This document shows positions 42,629 to 48,993 of a stretch of 64,000 nucleotides of DNA, in pieces. Source of the stretch: Bacteroidota bacterium. Lineage in GTDB: Bacteria > Bacteroidota > Bacteroidia > UKL13-3. Numbering within the stretch: the stretch's first letter is position 1; each line of letters starts with the position of its first letter. Position numbers and translations under genes: made by a program. The notes beneath the pieces were generated by a model. That model saw nothing but the letters and a program-made list of their open reading frames with translations, ran no database searches and had not been told where the DNA came from. Where the stretch lies: NCBI GenBank assembly GCA_040388375.1, contig JAZKBU010000004.1, forward strand, positions 372,001-436,000, in the 5' to 3' direction.

Positions 42629-42658
42629 TTGCTCAATAAATGTTTCAAATTATATTTG
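42629..42658 (+). promoter_or_regulatory. Candidate promoter of the cobalamin uptake operon
   Basis: TTG at 42629-42631 and a perfect TATATTTG at 42651-42658, 19 bp apart. Transcription would start near 42664, just ahead of the riboswitch. Confidence 0.6.
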
Positions 42659-42689
42659 CGCTGCATTTTGGTTTTGAGAATAATAACGT

Positions 42690-42865
42690 AGTTTATTTAA
42701 AAAATTAAAAGGGAATTAGGTGAAAAACCTAAACAGTACCCGCTGCTGTGAGTATCTCAATTTTAGTAAATACTAAAATTAATTTTTGTTTCCACTCTTT
42801 GTCACTATCGTAACGATGGGAAGACTGAATAAAAATGATACGAGTCAGAAGACCTGCCATATGCA
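42690..42865 (+). promoter_or_regulatory. Cobalamin (B12) riboswitch
   Basis: Conserved aptamer pieces occur in order: GGGAATTAGGTGAAAAACCT (42711-42730), AACAGTACCCGCTGCTGTGA, CCACT at about 42792, GGGAAGA near 42818, and the B12-box-like GAGTCAGAAGACCTGCC at 42842-42858. These match AdoCbl/MeCbl riboswitches, including the GGTGAAA...CCCGCTGCTGTGA core common in Bacteroidota. A leader of about 165 nt continues to the TonB receptor ATG at 43028. I see no clear T-tailed terminator in that leader, so control may be at translation. Binding cobalamin should switch off the uptake genes. Confidence 0.92.
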
Positions 42866-43027
42866 AAAAAATATTGTAGCTTTCGGGAATAAAAGCGTGC
42901 AGTGGTTTCGACTCAATAATACTTTTAAAAAGTTTTATCATCGGTATCATTACTCAACTTAGTTTGAAAAGACTGGTTCTTTCATACTAATTGATTTCCC
43001 GGCTACACCTATTTTAATTTTTTTGAA

Positions 43028-44899
43028 ATGAAAAAATATTGTTGTGTAGTTGTAGGTATTTTATTGACTAATTTGGCTTGGGGCCAAACTAGCCAAACAG
43101 ACTCTGCGCACCAGTTAAACCAAGTTTTTATTAAAGGGTTACGTGCCACAAACCTGAATAGTGCCAGTGTTATTCAAACACTATCCACCACCGATTTATT
43201 AAGCAGGCAAGGCAGTACAATGGCCGAAGTATTGCAGGAAAACACCCCCATATTTATTAGGAACTATGGCTCCGGAGGTTTAGCTACCGCCAGTTTCAGG
43301 GGCAGTAATGCCTACCATACACCGGTAATCTGGAATGGAATCAATATCCAGAATCCAATGAATGGACAAATCGATTTCAGTTCTATTCCTGTTTTTTTAA
43401 GCGATGAAATTAGCTTGCAGTATGGAGGAAACGGAGGCGTATGGGGCAGTGGAGCTATGGCTGGCTTGCTTTTTATTAATAGTGCCGTAAGTACCAATAA
43501 AAAGTTAAAAGTAGAGCTATTGGCCAGTGCGTTCGACTATGGTGTATTTCAGCAGGGAGCCAAAGTTAGCTTTAACTATAAAAAACTATTTTCAAGCACA
43601 AAGGCCTTTTTAAATACAGGCGATAACAGCTTTATGTATCGATACAGGGGGCAGGATTTCTATCAAAAGAATGCCCATTTAAACGACAAAGGATTTCAAC
43701 AGGTATTGGCTTATCAGGCCAACGCAAAAAATACCATAACTGGATTGTTTTGGTACAATGAAAGCGACAAGCAAATTGCCCCTAGTTTAAATGCCGCATT
43801 TAATAATGCCAATCAAAAGGATAAAAATGCAAGAGCCGCTATTACTTGGAATAATAAAACAACTAAGCATAGCAATGAGGTAAAACTGGCTTATTACTAC
43901 GATGAAATATTTTACAGCAGCTATGATATACCTCAATCATTAAGCAAAAGCAATACATTTAATTTAACAGGAGAGCATCAAATAACATTCAATAGCCAAA
44001 ACAGTATTCATTTTGGTATTAATAATTGGCTTGCTTTTGCCAATGTAGATGGTTACGACCAGCAGGTAAACCAGAACAGGTTGGCCGGATTTGCCTATTA
44101 TAAATCAGGCATTAAAAAAATAAAAATGCAGCAACAATTTGGCTTAAGAAGCGAGTTGGTAAATGAAAAATTTATCCCTTTGATGCCAAGTTATTATATG
44201 CAGCTACCCCTTGTAAAAAATATATTATTTAAAATAAACATAGCCCGCACCTATCGCTTACCAACGTTTAACGATTTATACTGGAAAAACGGAGGCAATA
44301 TAAATTTACAACCGGAACAAGGCTGGAGCAGCGATTGTGCTTTTTCATACCTAAAGAATAAGGACAAATGGAACTATGATATAACCCTATCGGTTTTTTA
44401 CAGAAACACCGAAAACTATATTCAATGGATTCCTATCAATGCAGCCATTTTCTCTCCTATTAATATTGGCAATGTAAATGCCAGAGGAATTGAATTCATA
44501 GCAAAGTCAACTGTTCAAACTTCAGAGAAATCAAGTATTAAGGGCAGTTACTTAGGTAGCTTTTTGCAAGCAGTTGACCAAAACAGTGACTTGCAATTAA
44601 TATTTACACCCAGGATAAAGCATGTATTTAATATTTTGTTCCTGTACAAAAGCTTAACCTTAAAATACAACCACATTTATAACGGGGTTAGCTTTACAAA
44701 ATCAGACCACAGTGAGTGGAACGATGATTTTGACATAGGCAACTTTGTTGTTTCAAAAAGCTTTGCGCTTAATCAACAAAACAAACTCAATTTACAGGTA
44801 GCAGTGAACAATGTATGGGATAAAAGTTATTTGGTTATGCCAGACAGACCTATGCCTTTACGTAACTACCAATTTACAATTCAATATACTTTAAATTAA
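43028..44899 (+). CDS. btuB: BtuB-like TonB-dependent receptor for cobalamin
   Basis: A 623-residue outer-membrane transporter. A signal peptide (about 1-19, NLAWGQ) precedes a TonB-box region and plug domain: MAEVLQENTPIFIRNYGSGG, TASFRGSNAYHTPVIWNGI and GSGAMAGLLFINSA. The remainder is a beta-barrel ending NYQFTIQYTLN with the terminal-strand aromatic pattern. The riboswitch directly upstream identifies cobalamin or a precursor as substrate. It is the first gene of the operon and is followed after 15 bp by the DUF4465-type protein. Inner-membrane BtuCDF genes are not in the window. Confidence 0.88.
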   Translation: MKKYCCVVVGILLTNLAWGQTSQTDSAHQLNQVFIKGLRATNLNSASVIQTLSTTDLLSRQGSTMAEVLQENTPIFIRNYGSGGLATASFRGSNAYHTPVIWNGINIQNPMNGQIDFSSIPVFLSDEISLQYGGNGGVWGSGAMAGLLFINSAVSTNKKLKVELLASAFDYGVFQQGAKVSFNYKKLFSSTKAFLNTGDNSFMYRYRGQDFYQKNAHLNDKGFQQVLAYQANAKNTITGLFWYNESDKQIAPSLNAAFNNANQKDKNARAAITWNNKTTKHSNEVKLAYYYDEIFYSSYDIPQSLSKSNTFNLTGEHQITFNSQNSIHFGINNWLAFANVDGYDQQVNQNRLAGFAYYKSGIKKIKMQQQFGLRSELVNEKFIPLMPSYYMQLPLVKNILFKINIARTYRLPTFNDLYWKNGGNINLQPEQGWSSDCAFSYLKNKDKWNYDITLSVFYRNTENYIQWIPINAAIFSPINIGNVNARGIEFIAKSTVQTSEKSSIKGSYLGSFLQAVDQNSDLQLIFTPRIKHVFNILFLYKSLTLKYNHIYNGVSFTKSDHSEWNDDFDIGNFVVSKSFALNQQNKLNLQVAVNNVWDKSYLVMPDRPMPLRNYQFTIQYTLN

Positions 44900-44914
44900 A
44901 ACTAAATATATAAA

Positions 44915-46555
44915 ATGAAAAATAGAATCTACACAAAAATCAGCGTTTTAGCCACTGCCTTTTTATTGGGAGTTGGAGCTAATGCACAAACGGTTTCAAC
45001 TTTCGAGTCAGTTGAATTAGGCGGAGCAAACAACGTAAAAATTCCTAGCAACGGCAGTGTTGTTGGCCAGTTTACCAGTGGCTCATGTAATTTTAAAAGT
45101 GTTTACCAAATTGGTTTTGGCGGTTACTGGAGTGCAGGTTGGGCTTACTCAAAAGTAAACGATACCACTACCCAATCATTTGATAACTTATATAGTTCTT
45201 ATGCAAATAAAGGGTATAACAATAGCCCGGCTTATGTAGTAGGACAAAACAATACAGTTCTTAGCTTAAGTACTGCAGCACAAAATACCACACTAAAAGG
45301 TTTGTATGTGAGCAATGCAACATTTGCTGCTTTAAGTATGAAAACAGGTGATGCATTTGCCAAAAAATTTGGTGGTACAACTGGAAACGATACAGATTGG
45401 TTTAAACTAGAAATTAAAGGATACAGCAGTGGTACTTTAAAAAGCCAGGCAGTTGATTTTTATTTAGCCGATTTCAGATCAAGCAACAACGCAAACGATT
45501 ATATTATTAAAGACTGGACTTGGGTTGATTTATCAGGTCTTGGTAATGTAGATAGTTTAATGTTTGAATTAAGCTCAAGCGATGCAGGCCAGTTTGGTAT
45601 GAACACCCCTGCTTTTTTTGCAATTGATGAAATTATTTCACAAACAGATACCGCTACTTTTGAAAATTTAACTTTTCCTTTTGGCCAAAACTATTGGAAC
45701 AGAGGCAGCAAAGTATTTACCGAAGTATATACTGACGGTAATGCCAATTTTGTAAGTGCTTATACTGTTAGTCCTTCATACAACTACTGGAGTAAAGGAT
45801 TTGCTATTTCTAATTATACCGATAGTGTTACTGAAGGATTGGATAATATTTATGCAAGTGCAAATGGAAAAGGTAGCAATGGTTCAGCTAAATATGCTAT
45901 TGCAAACAACAACTCAATCATTAAACTAACCAGCACTGCTATTGGAAAAAGAGTATCAGGCTTATATGTAAACAATGGTACTTATGCTTATTACAGCATG
46001 TTAAAAGGCGATGCATTTGCTAAAAAATTCGGTGGTGCAACTGGAAACGATCAAGATTGGTTTAGATTAAATATTAAAGCATGGCACAACGGAACAAAAT
46101 TAAACGATAGCGTGTTGTTTTATTTAGCTGATTTTAGATTTACTGATAACAGCCAGGATTATATATTAAAAAATTGGGGATGGGTTAATTTAACCAGCTT
46201 TGGTAATGTTGACAGCTTACAGTTTACTTTAGAGTCAAGCGATGTAGGACAATTTGGAATGAATACCCCTGCTTACTTTGCTATTGATGATTTTACTACA
46301 TTAAACTCAGGAGTTGGTGTGGCTGATATCAATAAATTAAAAAGCTTAACAGTATATCCAAATCCAAGTGCTAGCTATATTCAATTAATGGCTGATGAAA
46401 AAATAGAAACAGTAAATATATACAATGTACAAGGTCAGGAAGTATTGACTACTACAGGTAATAGTGTAGATGTAAGTTTACTGGAGCAGGGAGTATATAT
46501 GGTAAGTGCAACAACAAGCAACGGAACCATTAAAAGTAAATTTATTAAAGAATAA
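44915..46555 (+). CDS. T9SS-exported protein with two tandem DUF4465-type domains
   Basis: A 546-residue secreted protein: signal peptide (about 1-24), two homologous domains (about 25-245 and 246-465), then a T9SS sorting domain (SLTVYPNPSASYIQL to the end). The two halves share GDAFAKKFGGxTGND, DWF, YLADFR, NVDSL and GQFGMNTPAxFAIDD. This architecture fits DUF4465, a family met in Bacteroidota cobalamin-regulated loci and possibly related to the B12-binding BtuH proteins (hedged). By position, 15 bp behind the receptor, it should capture cobalamin at the cell surface. No ligand-binding residue can be assigned from sequence. Confidence 0.8.
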   Translation: MKNRIYTKISVLATAFLLGVGANAQTVSTFESVELGGANNVKIPSNGSVVGQFTSGSCNFKSVYQIGFGGYWSAGWAYSKVNDTTTQSFDNLYSSYANKGYNNSPAYVVGQNNTVLSLSTAAQNTTLKGLYVSNATFAALSMKTGDAFAKKFGGTTGNDTDWFKLEIKGYSSGTLKSQAVDFYLADFRSSNNANDYIIKDWTWVDLSGLGNVDSLMFELSSSDAGQFGMNTPAFFAIDEIISQTDTATFENLTFPFGQNYWNRGSKVFTEVYTDGNANFVSAYTVSPSYNYWSKGFAISNYTDSVTEGLDNIYASANGKGSNGSAKYAIANNNSIIKLTSTAIGKRVSGLYVNNGTYAYYSMLKGDAFAKKFGGATGNDQDWFRLNIKAWHNGTKLNDSVLFYLADFRFTDNSQDYILKNWGWVNLTSFGNVDSLQFTLESSDVGQFGMNTPAYFAIDDFTTLNSGVGVADINKLKSLTVYPNPSASYIQLMADEKIETVNIYNVQGQEVLTTTGNSVDVSLLEQGVYMVSATTSNGTIKSKFIKE

Positions 46556-46612
46556 CGATTATGCCTTTAATATAAAGGCATCAATCAATTTGTTTAGCCA
46601 AACATATATTCT

Positions 46613-46662
46613 ATAAAGTGGCTTTGGTATTTATTTACCAAAGTCACTTTATTAAATTTTTT
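46613..46662 (+). terminator. Hairpin inside the cobalamin operon (internal terminator or attenuator)
   Basis: A 17-bp stem (46613-46629 with 46636-46652, one G-U pair) is followed by TAAATTTTTT. A smaller perfect hairpin ATGCCTTT/AAAGGCAT lies at 46561-46581. Both lie in the 207-bp gap between the two T9SS-tailed genes, so expression may step down here. Confidence 0.65.
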
Positions 46663-46762
46663 GCTATTTGTTACAGCTGTTTTACCTTTAATTTGAGCTT
46701 GACTATGAAGGTAAGTTTAAATACAATCAATACAGTTTTAAATACATCAATAAAGTTATAAA

Positions 46763-47752
46763 ATGAAAAAAAGTTTAGTCCTTATTTTAATCATTATAAG
46801 CACGGGTAAGTTGAGTGCACAATTCGATAACCAGGTAGGTTTTGGTGCAAAAAATGCTATCCATAAAGATAGCAGTATTATAAAAGCTTGGGCTACCAAA
46901 ACTACTTTGCAAAGAGGCTGGCAGGATATTAGCGATACAAGCCTTGGTAAAGCAACGGTGGGCACTCCTTTTTACACCACAGGCATAGCCGATGGAACGG
47001 TATTAAGCTTAGGCGATTCGGGTATTGCAATTCTGCAATTTGAAAGACCAATTACCAATGGGCAAGGCTATGATTTTTGTGTGTTTGAAAATGGCTTTAC
47101 CCTTAATTCAGGTGTGGCGGAAGCTTTTTTAGAATATGCGCACGTAGAAGTAAGTAGCGATGGCGTTCAGTTTTTCCGTTTTCCTTCCCAATCAAAAATA
47201 GATACACTGGTTCAAAAGGCTTCTTTCGATTATATGAATACCAATTTGGTAGATGGTTTAGCAGGTAAATATATTGCTAACTATGGAACCCCTTTCGATT
47301 TAGCAGTTTTAGCCAATCAGCCAAACCTGAATATAAATAAAATTACCCATGTAAAAATTATAGATGTAGTAGGAAGCATTAACAATGTATACGCTACCCG
47401 TGATAATTTAGGTAATAAAATAAACGACCCATGGCCAACACCATTTGCAGCAGGTGGTTTCGATTTAGATGCCGTAGGTGTTATGAATCAGGCAGAGCCT
47501 AATGGCATTGCTAACAGTGAGCATGAAGTATTTAAAGTATATCCAAATCCGGTAAAAGCAGGTGATAAAATATACATCAACAATAGCCAGCAAGCATCCA
47601 TTAGTTTGTTTGATGCCAATGGAAAATGTTTGTTAACCAAAGAAACAAGTGAAGATAGTTTTATTGATACTGAAGGATTACACAAAGGCGTATATGTTTT
47701 ATTGGTTAACGGGCTCAATAAAACATATGCTAAAACATTAATGTTAAACTAA
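46763..47752 (+). CDS. T9SS-exported surface protein of the cobalamin operon
   Basis: A 329-residue secreted protein: signal peptide (about 1-19), a beta-rich domain with VLSLGDSGIAILQFERPITN, GYDFCVFENGF, EVSSDGVQFFRFPS and AGGFDLDAVGVM, then a T9SS sorting domain (VFKVYPNPVKAGDKIYI to the end). The FENGF and GFDLDAV blocks match a widespread family annotated only as cell surface protein, often beside B12 receptors. It lies 3 bp before the beta-propeller lipoprotein gene. Function beyond likely surface cobalamin handling is unknown. Confidence 0.75.
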   Translation: MKKSLVLILIIISTGKLSAQFDNQVGFGAKNAIHKDSSIIKAWATKTTLQRGWQDISDTSLGKATVGTPFYTTGIADGTVLSLGDSGIAILQFERPITNGQGYDFCVFENGFTLNSGVAEAFLEYAHVEVSSDGVQFFRFPSQSKIDTLVQKASFDYMNTNLVDGLAGKYIANYGTPFDLAVLANQPNLNINKITHVKIIDVVGSINNVYATRDNLGNKINDPWPTPFAAGGFDLDAVGVMNQAEPNGIANSEHEVFKVYPNPVKAGDKIYINNSQQASISLFDANGKCLLTKETSEDSFIDTEGLHKGVYVLLVNGLNKTYAKTLMLN

Positions 47753-47755
47753 ACA

Positions 47756-48796
47756 ATGAATAAATATTGCCTTTATATTTTAGTTGTTTGTTTTGCTTTA
47801 ACTGCGTGCGATAAGCCACCACAAACAAAGGCAATTCAAACCTTGCCTGACTCTACGTTGGGAGGTGTTTTTATTGTAAATGAAGGTAACTATACCCAAA
47901 GCAACGCTACTTTAGGTTTTATAGACTATAGCACCAATAAAACATACGATAATGTTTTTGAAAGCAAAAATAACAGGAAGCTGGGCGATGTTTTTCAGTC
48001 AATGACTGTTATAAACGATAATGCCTATTTGGTTATTAATAATTCAGGTAAAGTAGAAGTAATCAATGCCAAAACATTTCAGTCAGTAAATACCATTAAA
48101 GGCTTACGCTCCCCGCGTTATATTTGCAAAACAAGCTACAACAAAATATACGTGAGCGATTTATATGCAAACAAAATCTCCGTAGTTGATTTAAGCACTT
48201 ATGAAACCACCAAAACCATTGATTTATTTGGATGGAGCGAAGAAATGATTTCGTATAAAGGGAAAACTTATGTAACCAATGTTAAAACAAACCACATAAG
48301 TATTATTGATGAATTAACCGACCAGATTACAGATAGTATAGCAACACCGTTTGCACCCAAAAGCATCGTACAGGATTCAGCCCATAATTTATGGATACTC
48401 TGTGGCGATGTGAATGCTACGGATAAAAAACATTTTATAGTTCAGATAGATATCAATACACAATCCATTATACATCAATGGCAGATAACAACTCCACAAA
48501 CAGCTGCCAGTAAACTACACATAAACAAAGCGGGCAATACCCTGTTTTGGATAGATGAAGGTATTTTTAAAATGGGTATTTACGAGCAGCAGTTACCTAC
48601 ACAGGCATTTATTGAAAAAGCAGGCAGGCTTTTTTATGGGTTTAATATTGACAATAAGCGTAACCAGATATGGGTTAGCGATGTAAAAGATTTTAATACC
48701 ACCAGCGATATATACCGCTACGACCTGAATGGAAGTTTAATAGAGAAACTAAACGGAGGGAAAATAACAAGCGATTTTTACTTTTATGCAGATTAG
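47756..48796 (+). CDS. BtuG-like beta-propeller lipoprotein
   Basis: A 346-residue lipoprotein with lipobox ALTACDK (Cys about 18). The rest is a repeated YncE/DUF5074-type beta-propeller: GGVFIVNEGNYTQSNATLGFID, NKIYVSDLYANKISVVDLSTYE, GKTYVTNVKTNHISIIDEL and NQIWVSDVKDF mark successive blades. BtuG of Bacteroides is a seven-bladed surface propeller that binds B12 with extreme affinity and hands it to BtuB. The fold, lipid anchor and operon position support the same role here. Equivalence to BtuG is inferred, not shown by identity. Confidence 0.8.
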   Translation: MNKYCLYILVVCFALTACDKPPQTKAIQTLPDSTLGGVFIVNEGNYTQSNATLGFIDYSTNKTYDNVFESKNNRKLGDVFQSMTVINDNAYLVINNSGKVEVINAKTFQSVNTIKGLRSPRYICKTSYNKIYVSDLYANKISVVDLSTYETTKTIDLFGWSEEMISYKGKTYVTNVKTNHISIIDELTDQITDSIATPFAPKSIVQDSAHNLWILCGDVNATDKKHFIVQIDINTQSIIHQWQITTPQTAASKLHINKAGNTLFWIDEGIFKMGIYEQQLPTQAFIEKAGRLFYGFNIDNKRNQIWVSDVKDFNTTSDIYRYDLNGSLIEKLNGGKITSDFYFYAD

Positions 48797-48798
48797 AG

Positions 48799-48993
48799 AT
48801 GGCAAATCGAATTAATGAAGATATAAAAGCCAATAAATTACCTGCCAAAAATGAATTAAAAGAAGGAGAACATTTTTATTTTAATGAACAGGGCTATATG
48901 GTTTTTACCGAGGCCTATCACAAATTACGTGGTTACTGTTGTGGCAATGGCTGTAAGCATTGCCCGTATAATCATAAAAACGTTCAGTTTTAA
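48799..48993 (+). CDS. Small DUF5522 protein
   Basis: A 64-residue protein with HFYFNEQGYMVFTEAYHKLRG (in part) and a compact cysteine cluster YCCGNGCKHCPYNHK, typical of DUF5522, found in many Bacteroidota. The Cys group could bind zinc or an Fe-S cluster. It begins 2 bp after the propeller lipoprotein and is probably co-transcribed. Whether it relates to cobalamin or merely shares the transcript is unknown. Confidence 0.8.
   Translation: MANRINEDIKANKLPAKNELKEGEHFYFNEQGYMVFTEAYHKLRGYCCGNGCKHCPYNHKNVQF

Follow-up and report, generated by a model that had tools for sequence, protein, structure and literature searches.

Microbial communities are shaped by the exchange of vitamin B12, for which the machinery on the cell surface is known mainly from gut Bacteroides. 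The cobamide operons of Bacteroides thetaiotaomicron encode BtuB, BtuG, BtuH, BtuJ, BtuK and BtuL (PMC12751083, PMC8941943; articles given by PMC number are cited here from excerpts of their text), of which BtuJ and BtuH are lipoproteins (PMC12751083). DUF4465 proteins represent the BtuJ family, eight divergent members of which, one of them from Fluviicola taffensis, have been demonstrated to bind B12 (PMC13398666). BtuH has been surveyed in gut Bacteroidetes (PMC8941943). In this study, we analyzed a 64 kb stretch of DNA from a Bacteroidota bacterium (this whole stretch is called the window in the following), in which a cobalamin riboswitch is followed on the plus strand by genes for a BtuB-like receptor, a tandem DUF4465 protein with a C-terminal tail for the type IX secretion system (T9SS), a second T9SS-tailed protein named P3 (46763-47752), a BtuG-type lipoprotein and a DUF5522 protein. 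The new component is P3; the BtuB/BtuG core and the T9SS form of DUF4465 are already known. By its modeled fold and a partial profile match, P3 is most likely a BtuH-like protein and a predicted B12 binder, and it is tied to B12 genes across genomes.

Fold and profile likeness of P3 to BtuH

Searches of Pfam at E ≤ 0.1 gave nothing for P3 beyond the T9SS tail and, for 33 relatives, only tail-type and scattered weak matches, while a search of PDB sequences with P3 alone gave matches in the tail only. The AlphaFold2 model reached a predicted local distance difference test score of 88.7 for the whole protein and of 96.6 for the core, the latter with an alignment of 97 sequences. In VIA-align, the core matched best the B12-binding domains of BtuH2 (7biz; Z 12.6, 161 residues, root mean square deviation 3.9) and BtuGH (8blw; Z 11.5, 162 residues, root mean square deviation 3.5), and both also ranked on top in a second, separate run. 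Foldseek with the core placed 8blw_B at rank 1 as the sole match under 0.001 (8.5e-4). The same chain came first when a P3 profile was searched against 177,635 distinct PDB sequences, the match lying within its BtuH part, with an E-value of 0.0088 for a profile of 19 sequences and of 4.7e-4 for one of 97 sequences. A profile comparison by hhalign with eleven BtuH proteins gave a modest and partial match (probability 74, E 2.8e-5, 56 columns).

These eleven BtuH proteins were themselves found through the P3 profile, which matched 62 of 395 genomes of the phylum at E ≤ 0.01. Among the matches, 18 were weak, and 17 of these were fetched. Eleven of the 17 are lipobox proteins (by eye) carrying BtuH sequence, two of them as BtuG fusions, and their identity as BtuH was checked with their alignment, which matches 8blw (2.3e-112) and 7biz (1.9e-69) in the PDB. 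Ten of the eleven have a B12 box or a gene or domain of BtuG or BtuB type next to them; the remaining one (L254) is located at a contig end. The other six weak matches (L246, L253, L257, L258, L260, and L261) are not BtuH, no B12 gene was found near them, and five of the six resemble other proteins.

Several observations speak against a close kinship of P3 and BtuH. Unrelated folds follow closely in VIA-align, namely PAPP-A2 (Z 11.0, 123 residues) and CBM32 (Z 10.1), so that Z does not separate 8blw from PAPP-A2. With full-length P3, Foldseek ranked beta-glucuronidases first, at template modeling scores of about 0.2-0.3 by query length, and the profile link between P3 and BtuH spans only about 60 residues. 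Furthermore, L253:6861-7490 encodes a 209-amino-acid (aa) lipoprotein with a P3-like end and, by eye, no T9SS tail, which matches the P3 profile weakly; no B12 gene was found in its 15 kb stretch, and it may be a real P3 relative outside a B12 locus. The candidate assignment of P3 as a DUF4465 relative was rejected, as DUF4465 was absent from the Pfam matches (E ≤ 0.1) of the 33 proteins and the best folds were those of BtuH.

P3 and the LIC_13355 lipoprotein family of Leptospira (NF033170) also have a short conserved core in common, seen as a match below the cut-off for P3 of the window, for 29 of the 33 relatives and for 59 of the best 80 P3 loci described below. The LIC_13355 lipoprotein was studied as a binder of laminin and plasminogen, and the words cobalamin and vitamin are absent from that article (PMC11891782). 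Apart from this weak likeness, the Leptospira protein differs from P3 in being a lipoprotein that was studied as a binder of host ligands.

Binding-site residues

The contacts of BtuH2 to B12 are Gln333, Asn399, Phe401, His476, Tyr510, Trp511, Trp577, and Leu578 (PMC8941943), and with 100 added to its printed index, the 7biz alignment shows the named letter at each of these eight positions. Asn399, a phosphate contact in the nucleotide loop, corresponds to N110 of P3, which is kept in 97/97 sequences, and Phe401 corresponds to F112, kept in 90/97; together, the two represent nucleotide-loop and lower-ligand contacts. Gln333 and the ring-side contacts His476, Tyr510, Trp511, and Trp577 lie outside the aligned stretch, and by eye no equivalent was found in P3, which detracts from the assignment. 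According to model and alignment, P3 and BtuH thus share the fold and part of the binding site, and P3 is a predicted B12 binder.

Association of P3 with B12 genes across genomes

Scanning 84,980 species genomes revealed at least 560 P3 loci, of which the best 80 were kept; the locus counts therefore hold for near relatives. Of these 80, 62 have a cobalamin riboswitch (RF00174) ahead of P3 on its strand, and likewise in 62 loci a BtuB-, BtuG- or DUF4465-type gene is either fused to P3 or located on its strand at a distance of up to 4 kb, the receptor profile used for BtuB-type neighbors possibly also matching other receptors. One or the other was found in 72/80. In the three closely related loci L185, L187, and L201, P3 follows a riboswitch of its own and was the sole gene found there, the neighbors on both sides lying on the opposite strand, which suits a direct role of P3. 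In L135, an opposite-strand gene follows P3, and the riboswitch is preceded, at a distance of 369 bases, by the end of a same-strand gene; all these gene counts refer to open reading frames of at least 120 aa. P3 and DUF4465 are fused in one protein in L177 and L193, with the tail of the latter below the Pfam cut-off. In the GTDB family of the genome studied here, P3 lies within the operon in 22/39 loci, L112 and L113 being cut by contig ends, and in a UBA6183 genome (L128) it stands apart under its own riboswitch.

A less selected sample was drawn from the 395 phylum genomes, 44 of which had a single-sequence P3 match and from which 20 loci were fetched. A BtuB- or BtuG-type neighbor was present in 13 of the 20, and in three more (L066, L070, and L071) a riboswitch was located upstream at a distance below 1 kb. 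P3 has a conserved tie to B12 genes in both samples, and the exceptions that count against it are the four loci of the phylum sample with neither a BtuB/BtuG-type neighbor nor a riboswitch (L065, L069, L082, and L083) and eight of the best 80 in which neither a riboswitch nor a BtuB/BtuG/DUF4465-type gene was found (L143, L151, L152, L157, L158, L160, L172, and L175). In L175, from Bacteroidetes bacterium UKL13-3, P3 overlaps cobT, followed by cobS and a phosphatase gene.

Two side observations concern individual loci. A DUF6580 gene is located upstream of P3 at L175:8647-9225, beside cobT/cobS, and at L158:1893-2459, with no riboswitch nearby. L145, with P3 and a riboswitch, is assigned to Bdellovibrionales and is the only one of the best 80 with a title outside Bacteroidota; it stems from a metagenome bin and is possibly misbinned.

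T9SS tails and the probable export route

The tail of P3 scored 46.2 bits with TIGR04183 and that of the DUF4465 protein 49.3 bits, the curated cut-off being 23, in agreement with the two T9SS-tailed proteins of the original prediction. Residues 255-329 of P3 match the T9SS tail structures 8qb1, 8glk, and 8glj. TIGR04183 was also found at E ≤ 0.01 in 31/33 P3 proteins, in 79/80 of the best named P3 loci and in 40/40 DUF4465 proteins scanned (40 of the 55 genomes with this domain in the GTDB family). P3 of the window has no Cys in its signal-peptide region and no lipid anchor as present in BtuH1 and BtuH2 of B. thetaiotaomicron. A loose lipobox pattern occurs in 8/80 P3 relatives, where by eye mostly an ordinary cleavage site then follows. 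The T9SS machinery of the genome was checked through PorU and the PorP family: a PorU sortase is encoded (1232 bits), as are three PorP-family proteins. With tails above the cut-off, PorU and PorP present, and BtuJ and BtuH being lipoproteins in B. thetaiotaomicron, the sequences give good grounds for the idea that the probable capture proteins are attached or released through a different route, most likely with export of the BtuJ-type and BtuH-like proteins via T9SS.

The tails could simply take the place of the lipid anchor. Both proteins would then stay on the surface, none would be released, and the system would work in the way of Bacteroides. PorU, which is encoded in this genome, commonly joins type A tails to anionic lipopolysaccharide, and we regard such anchoring as rather probable, the results being compatible with release as well.

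The tandem DUF4465 protein

The protein encoded at 44915 matches PF14717 with 329.2 bits over two stretches and PF18962 in its tail, and BtuJ1 (9fct) in the PDB at 1.8e-21. It is a BtuJ relative with two DUF4465 domains and a predicted B12 binder. BtuG as identity of this protein or of P3 was rejected, neither matching a propeller. Of the two tailed proteins for which a structural comparison with BtuG and BtuH was suggested along with the original prediction, P3 best matches BtuH by its model, and the protein at 44915 is a BtuJ relative and neither BtuG nor BtuH.

We take IPR026444 to be the accession of the T9SS tail. It occurs on 229/824 sequences of the DUF4465 family (PMC12751083); the T9SS form of DUF4465 is therefore already known, and DUF4465 with a T9SS tail was rejected as a new combination. 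Within the GTDB family, 55/64 genomes have DUF4465 and 60/64 a cobalamin riboswitch, and besides the tail being present in all proteins scanned, a BtuB-like gene adjoins the DUF4465 gene in 39/39 loci fetched for DUF4465.

Three positions of BtuJ1 were examined, Tyr146 (DE helix), Tyr148, and Tyr245 (HI loop), their numbering being verified on the 9fct alignment. Domain 2 of the window protein keeps the three tyrosines, with the HI loop NTPAY (Y454). Domain 1 lacks all three, with F137 at the DE-helix position and the HI loop NTPAF (F234), a point against the capture role proposed below. Among 17 tandem DUF4465 proteins (the window protein, L096-L099, L101, L102, L105-L108, L110-L114, and L122), the HI-loop Tyr, a supposed hallmark, is replaced by Phe in 33/34 domains, the lone exception being domain 2 of the window protein. 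In single-domain proteins, the position is Tyr in 19/23 and Phe in 4/23. This Phe of tandem DUF4465 proteins is not mentioned in the excerpts of PMC13398666 or PMC12751083.

Layout of the locus and genome context

The features of the locus are given in Table 1. RF00174 is matched over its full model (1-189) with 77.9 bits, the gathering score being 31.5, and the match is the only one at the gathering threshold across the window. Its first bases overlap a promoter candidate of the form TTG-N19-TATATTTG, which we take to be a Bacteroidota-type promoter. A looser pattern, TTG-N17-21-TAnnTTTG, is present close to where the riboswitch begins in 21/38 related loci versus 47/7600 mononucleotide shuffles, whereas a sigma-70 promoter scan was uninformative (22 sites vs a shuffle mean of 28.7). 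A promoter and a cobalamin riboswitch ahead of a BtuB-like receptor, as originally predicted, are thereby corroborated.

Table 1. Features of the B12 locus in the window, with positions counted from the first base of the window
Feature	Position	Strand	Basis
Promoter, Bacteroidota-type (candidate)	42629..42658	+	Sequence; loose pattern in related loci
Cobalamin riboswitch aptamer RF00174	42651..42875	+	77.9 bits
BtuB-like TonB-dependent receptor, 623 aa	43028..44899	+	PF07715; PDB receptors
Tandem DUF4465 (BtuJ-type) protein, 546 aa, T9SS type A tail	44915..46555	+	PF14717, PF18962, TIGR04183
DUF4465 domain 1 (F137, A139, F234)	45122..45634 (G000:C4:417122-417634)	+	Domain match
DUF4465 domain 2 (Y357, Y359, Y454)	45776..46294 (G000:C4:417776-418294)	+	Domain match
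T9SS type A tail of DUF4465 protein, residues 480-546	46352..46552	+	TIGR04183
Terminator-like hairpin, 17-bp stem, then T tract	46613..46652	+	Folding
P3, BtuH-like, 329 aa, no Pfam family except T9SS tail	46763..47752	+	
P3 BtuH-like core, residues 41-243	46883..47491	+	VIA-align to 7biz, 8blw
P3 T9SS type A tail, residues 259-328	47537..47746	+	TIGR04183; structural match
BtuG-type beta-propeller lipoprotein, 346 aa	47756..48796	+	PF16819, PDB propeller chains, lipobox
DUF5522 small Cys-rich protein	48799..48993	+	PF17653 80.8 bits

The receptor matches PF07715 with 46 bits and gave four PDB matches at E ≤ 0.001 (8p98, 8p97, 8bmx, and 8blw; best 5.6e-48), two of which are named vitamin B12 transporter BtuB; it misses the NCBI equivalog TIGR01779 (68.4 bits vs a cut-off of 599.7). 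The protein encoded at 47756 matches DUF5074 (PF16819) with 90.7 bits, and its best PDB matches include partner chains of the BtuB entries (8p97_B, 3.2e-48), which, judging from the title of 8blw, we presume to be BtuG. Together with the lipobox LTAC, recognized by eye, this agrees with the BtuG-like propeller lipoprotein postulated before. Sequence comparison supports both proteins as BtuB and BtuG of the Bacteroides kind in a B12-uptake locus. The open reading frame for the DUF5522 protein begins 3 bases past the btuG stop codon and is found in the same place in several relatives.

Elsewhere in the genome, which encodes this one DUF4465 protein only, there is a second and only other cobalamin riboswitch at G000:C7:157005-157141 on the minus strand (locus L115, G000:C7:150000-165000); downstream of it lie two genes whose products, inspected by eye, look like the beta and alpha subunits of a class I ribonucleotide reductase. 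As evidence of B12 use, MetH was found with two separate matches at G000:C6:273646-277702; the longer one spans model positions 318-1182 and contains one TAA, and the other spans positions 1-322. btuCDF were not among the genes identified in 42629-48993, and no search aimed at them was made.

Transcription of the downstream genes

The hairpin between the DUF4465 gene and P3 (-22.7 kcal/mol) is a point against one continuous operon, making a single transcript, and with it riboswitch control of the genes at 46763 and 47756, uncertain. The predicted riboswitch-controlled operon was accordingly confirmed with respect to the riboswitch and the places of the genes, but not with respect to a common transcript. 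The eight same-genus gaps folded (window 46556-46762, L096-L099, L110, L111, and L114) all contain a strong hairpin. Seven with clear ends are 131-207 bp long, and that of L110, for which the start of the gene was assumed, measures 127 bp. The hairpins represent at least three unrelated sequences, and some resemble dispersed palindromic repeats. In other genera, no more than 10 bp separate DUF4465 from P3 in 12/15 loci with both genes. Given the hairpins in the same-genus gaps and the short gaps elsewhere, P3 and BtuG may here have weaker expression or be transcribed from a different promoter.

In the stricter form of this alternative, only BtuB and DUF4465 would be under riboswitch control here, and P3, BtuG, and DUF5522 would be transcribed from their own promoter without regulation by B12. 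Apart from the consistently long, hairpin-bearing gaps of the genus, a promoter-like match TTG-N18-TAATTTG behind the hairpin favors it, found among the same-genus gaps in the window's only. On the other hand, there are the short gaps of other genera, P3 keeps its own riboswitch in several genomes where it has been relocated, and hairpins between genes often merely lower downstream expression. We therefore regard separate, B12-independent transcription as unlikely, though worth keeping in mind, and retain riboswitch control of the whole locus as the preferred reading.

Proposed mechanism

Taken together, the locus quite probably encodes Bacteroides-type BtuB/BtuG uptake, silenced by the riboswitch, with BtuJ- and BtuH-type capture proteins exported by T9SS. 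When B12 is plentiful, the riboswitch would silence the locus, and when B12 is scarce, the operon would be made. As known from Bacteroides, BtuB and the lipoprotein BtuG would assemble into the import complex of the outer membrane. The tandem BtuJ-type protein and P3 would both pass through Sec and then T9SS, which would remove the C-terminal tail, the proteins being attached to surface lipopolysaccharide or released. They would act on the cell surface or just outside, and scarce corrinoid captured there would be handed over to BtuG/BtuB.

Such a capture role is harder to reconcile with the finding that the accessory proteins BtuK2 and BtuL from B12 operons of B. thetaiotaomicron did not bind B12 (PMC12751083). 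Likewise, P3 could belong to the B12 regulon as a non-binding accessory or adaptor protein (a sugar-binding, surface-attachment or CBM-type docking domain) that aids DUF4465/BtuG; this has in its favor, besides BtuK2 and BtuL, the CBM32 and PAPP-A folds close behind BtuH and the ring-side contacts not found in P3, but it is improbable, slightly more so than separate transcription, as BtuH is the best match by both fold and profile, the Asn399 contact is kept and Phe401 mostly so, and P3 occurs as sole gene behind a riboswitch. B12 capture thus remains the preferred role of P3. A further-reaching and still less probable extension is that the tandem BtuJ-type protein and P3 are released as soluble corrinoid carriers, a B12 counterpart of hemophores, and recaptured by BtuG/BtuB, that P3 is the founding member of a family of secreted corrinoid binders present throughout Bacteroidota, and that tandem DUF4465 with Phe for Tyr recognizes another cobamide or a precursor.

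With at least 560 loci in the species genomes scanned, the best 80 nearly all from Bacteroidota groups, the P3 family offers a testable candidate capture protein for environmental bacteria and a likely, predicted function for proteins without a Pfam model.

Comparison with known systems

The original prediction had described the locus as a distinct variant of the known B12-uptake system. This applies insofar as BtuB and BtuG of the Bacteroides kind are combined with two tailed probable capture proteins, and insofar as a T9SS-exported BtuH-like family, to which P3 would belong, was not found in searches of open-access literature; it does not apply to the tailed DUF4465 protein, which is already in print (PMC12751083). 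That published set shares DUF4465 and the T9SS tail with the tandem protein of the window; in the excerpts of PMC12751083, no tandem form, operon or partner is mentioned for the tailed set.

In comparison with the cobamide operons of B. thetaiotaomicron, riboswitch, BtuB, the lipoprotein BtuG, and BtuJ- and BtuH-type extra proteins are shared (PMC12751083, PMC8941943). BtuJ and BtuH are lipoproteins there, BtuJ being enriched in vesicles, whereas both counterparts here carry T9SS tails and no lipobox, and the BtuJ-type protein is a tandem. The likeness of P3 to BtuH (BT_1956, 7biz; BtuGH BT_1490, 8blw) comprises the fold, a partial profile match, Asn399 and mostly Phe401, and the company of BtuB/BtuG. 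In contrast to BtuH, P3 is shorter, has neither the GWLGE motif nor other placeable ring-side contacts and no PKD or propeller partner domain, and carries a T9SS tail in place of the lipid anchor.

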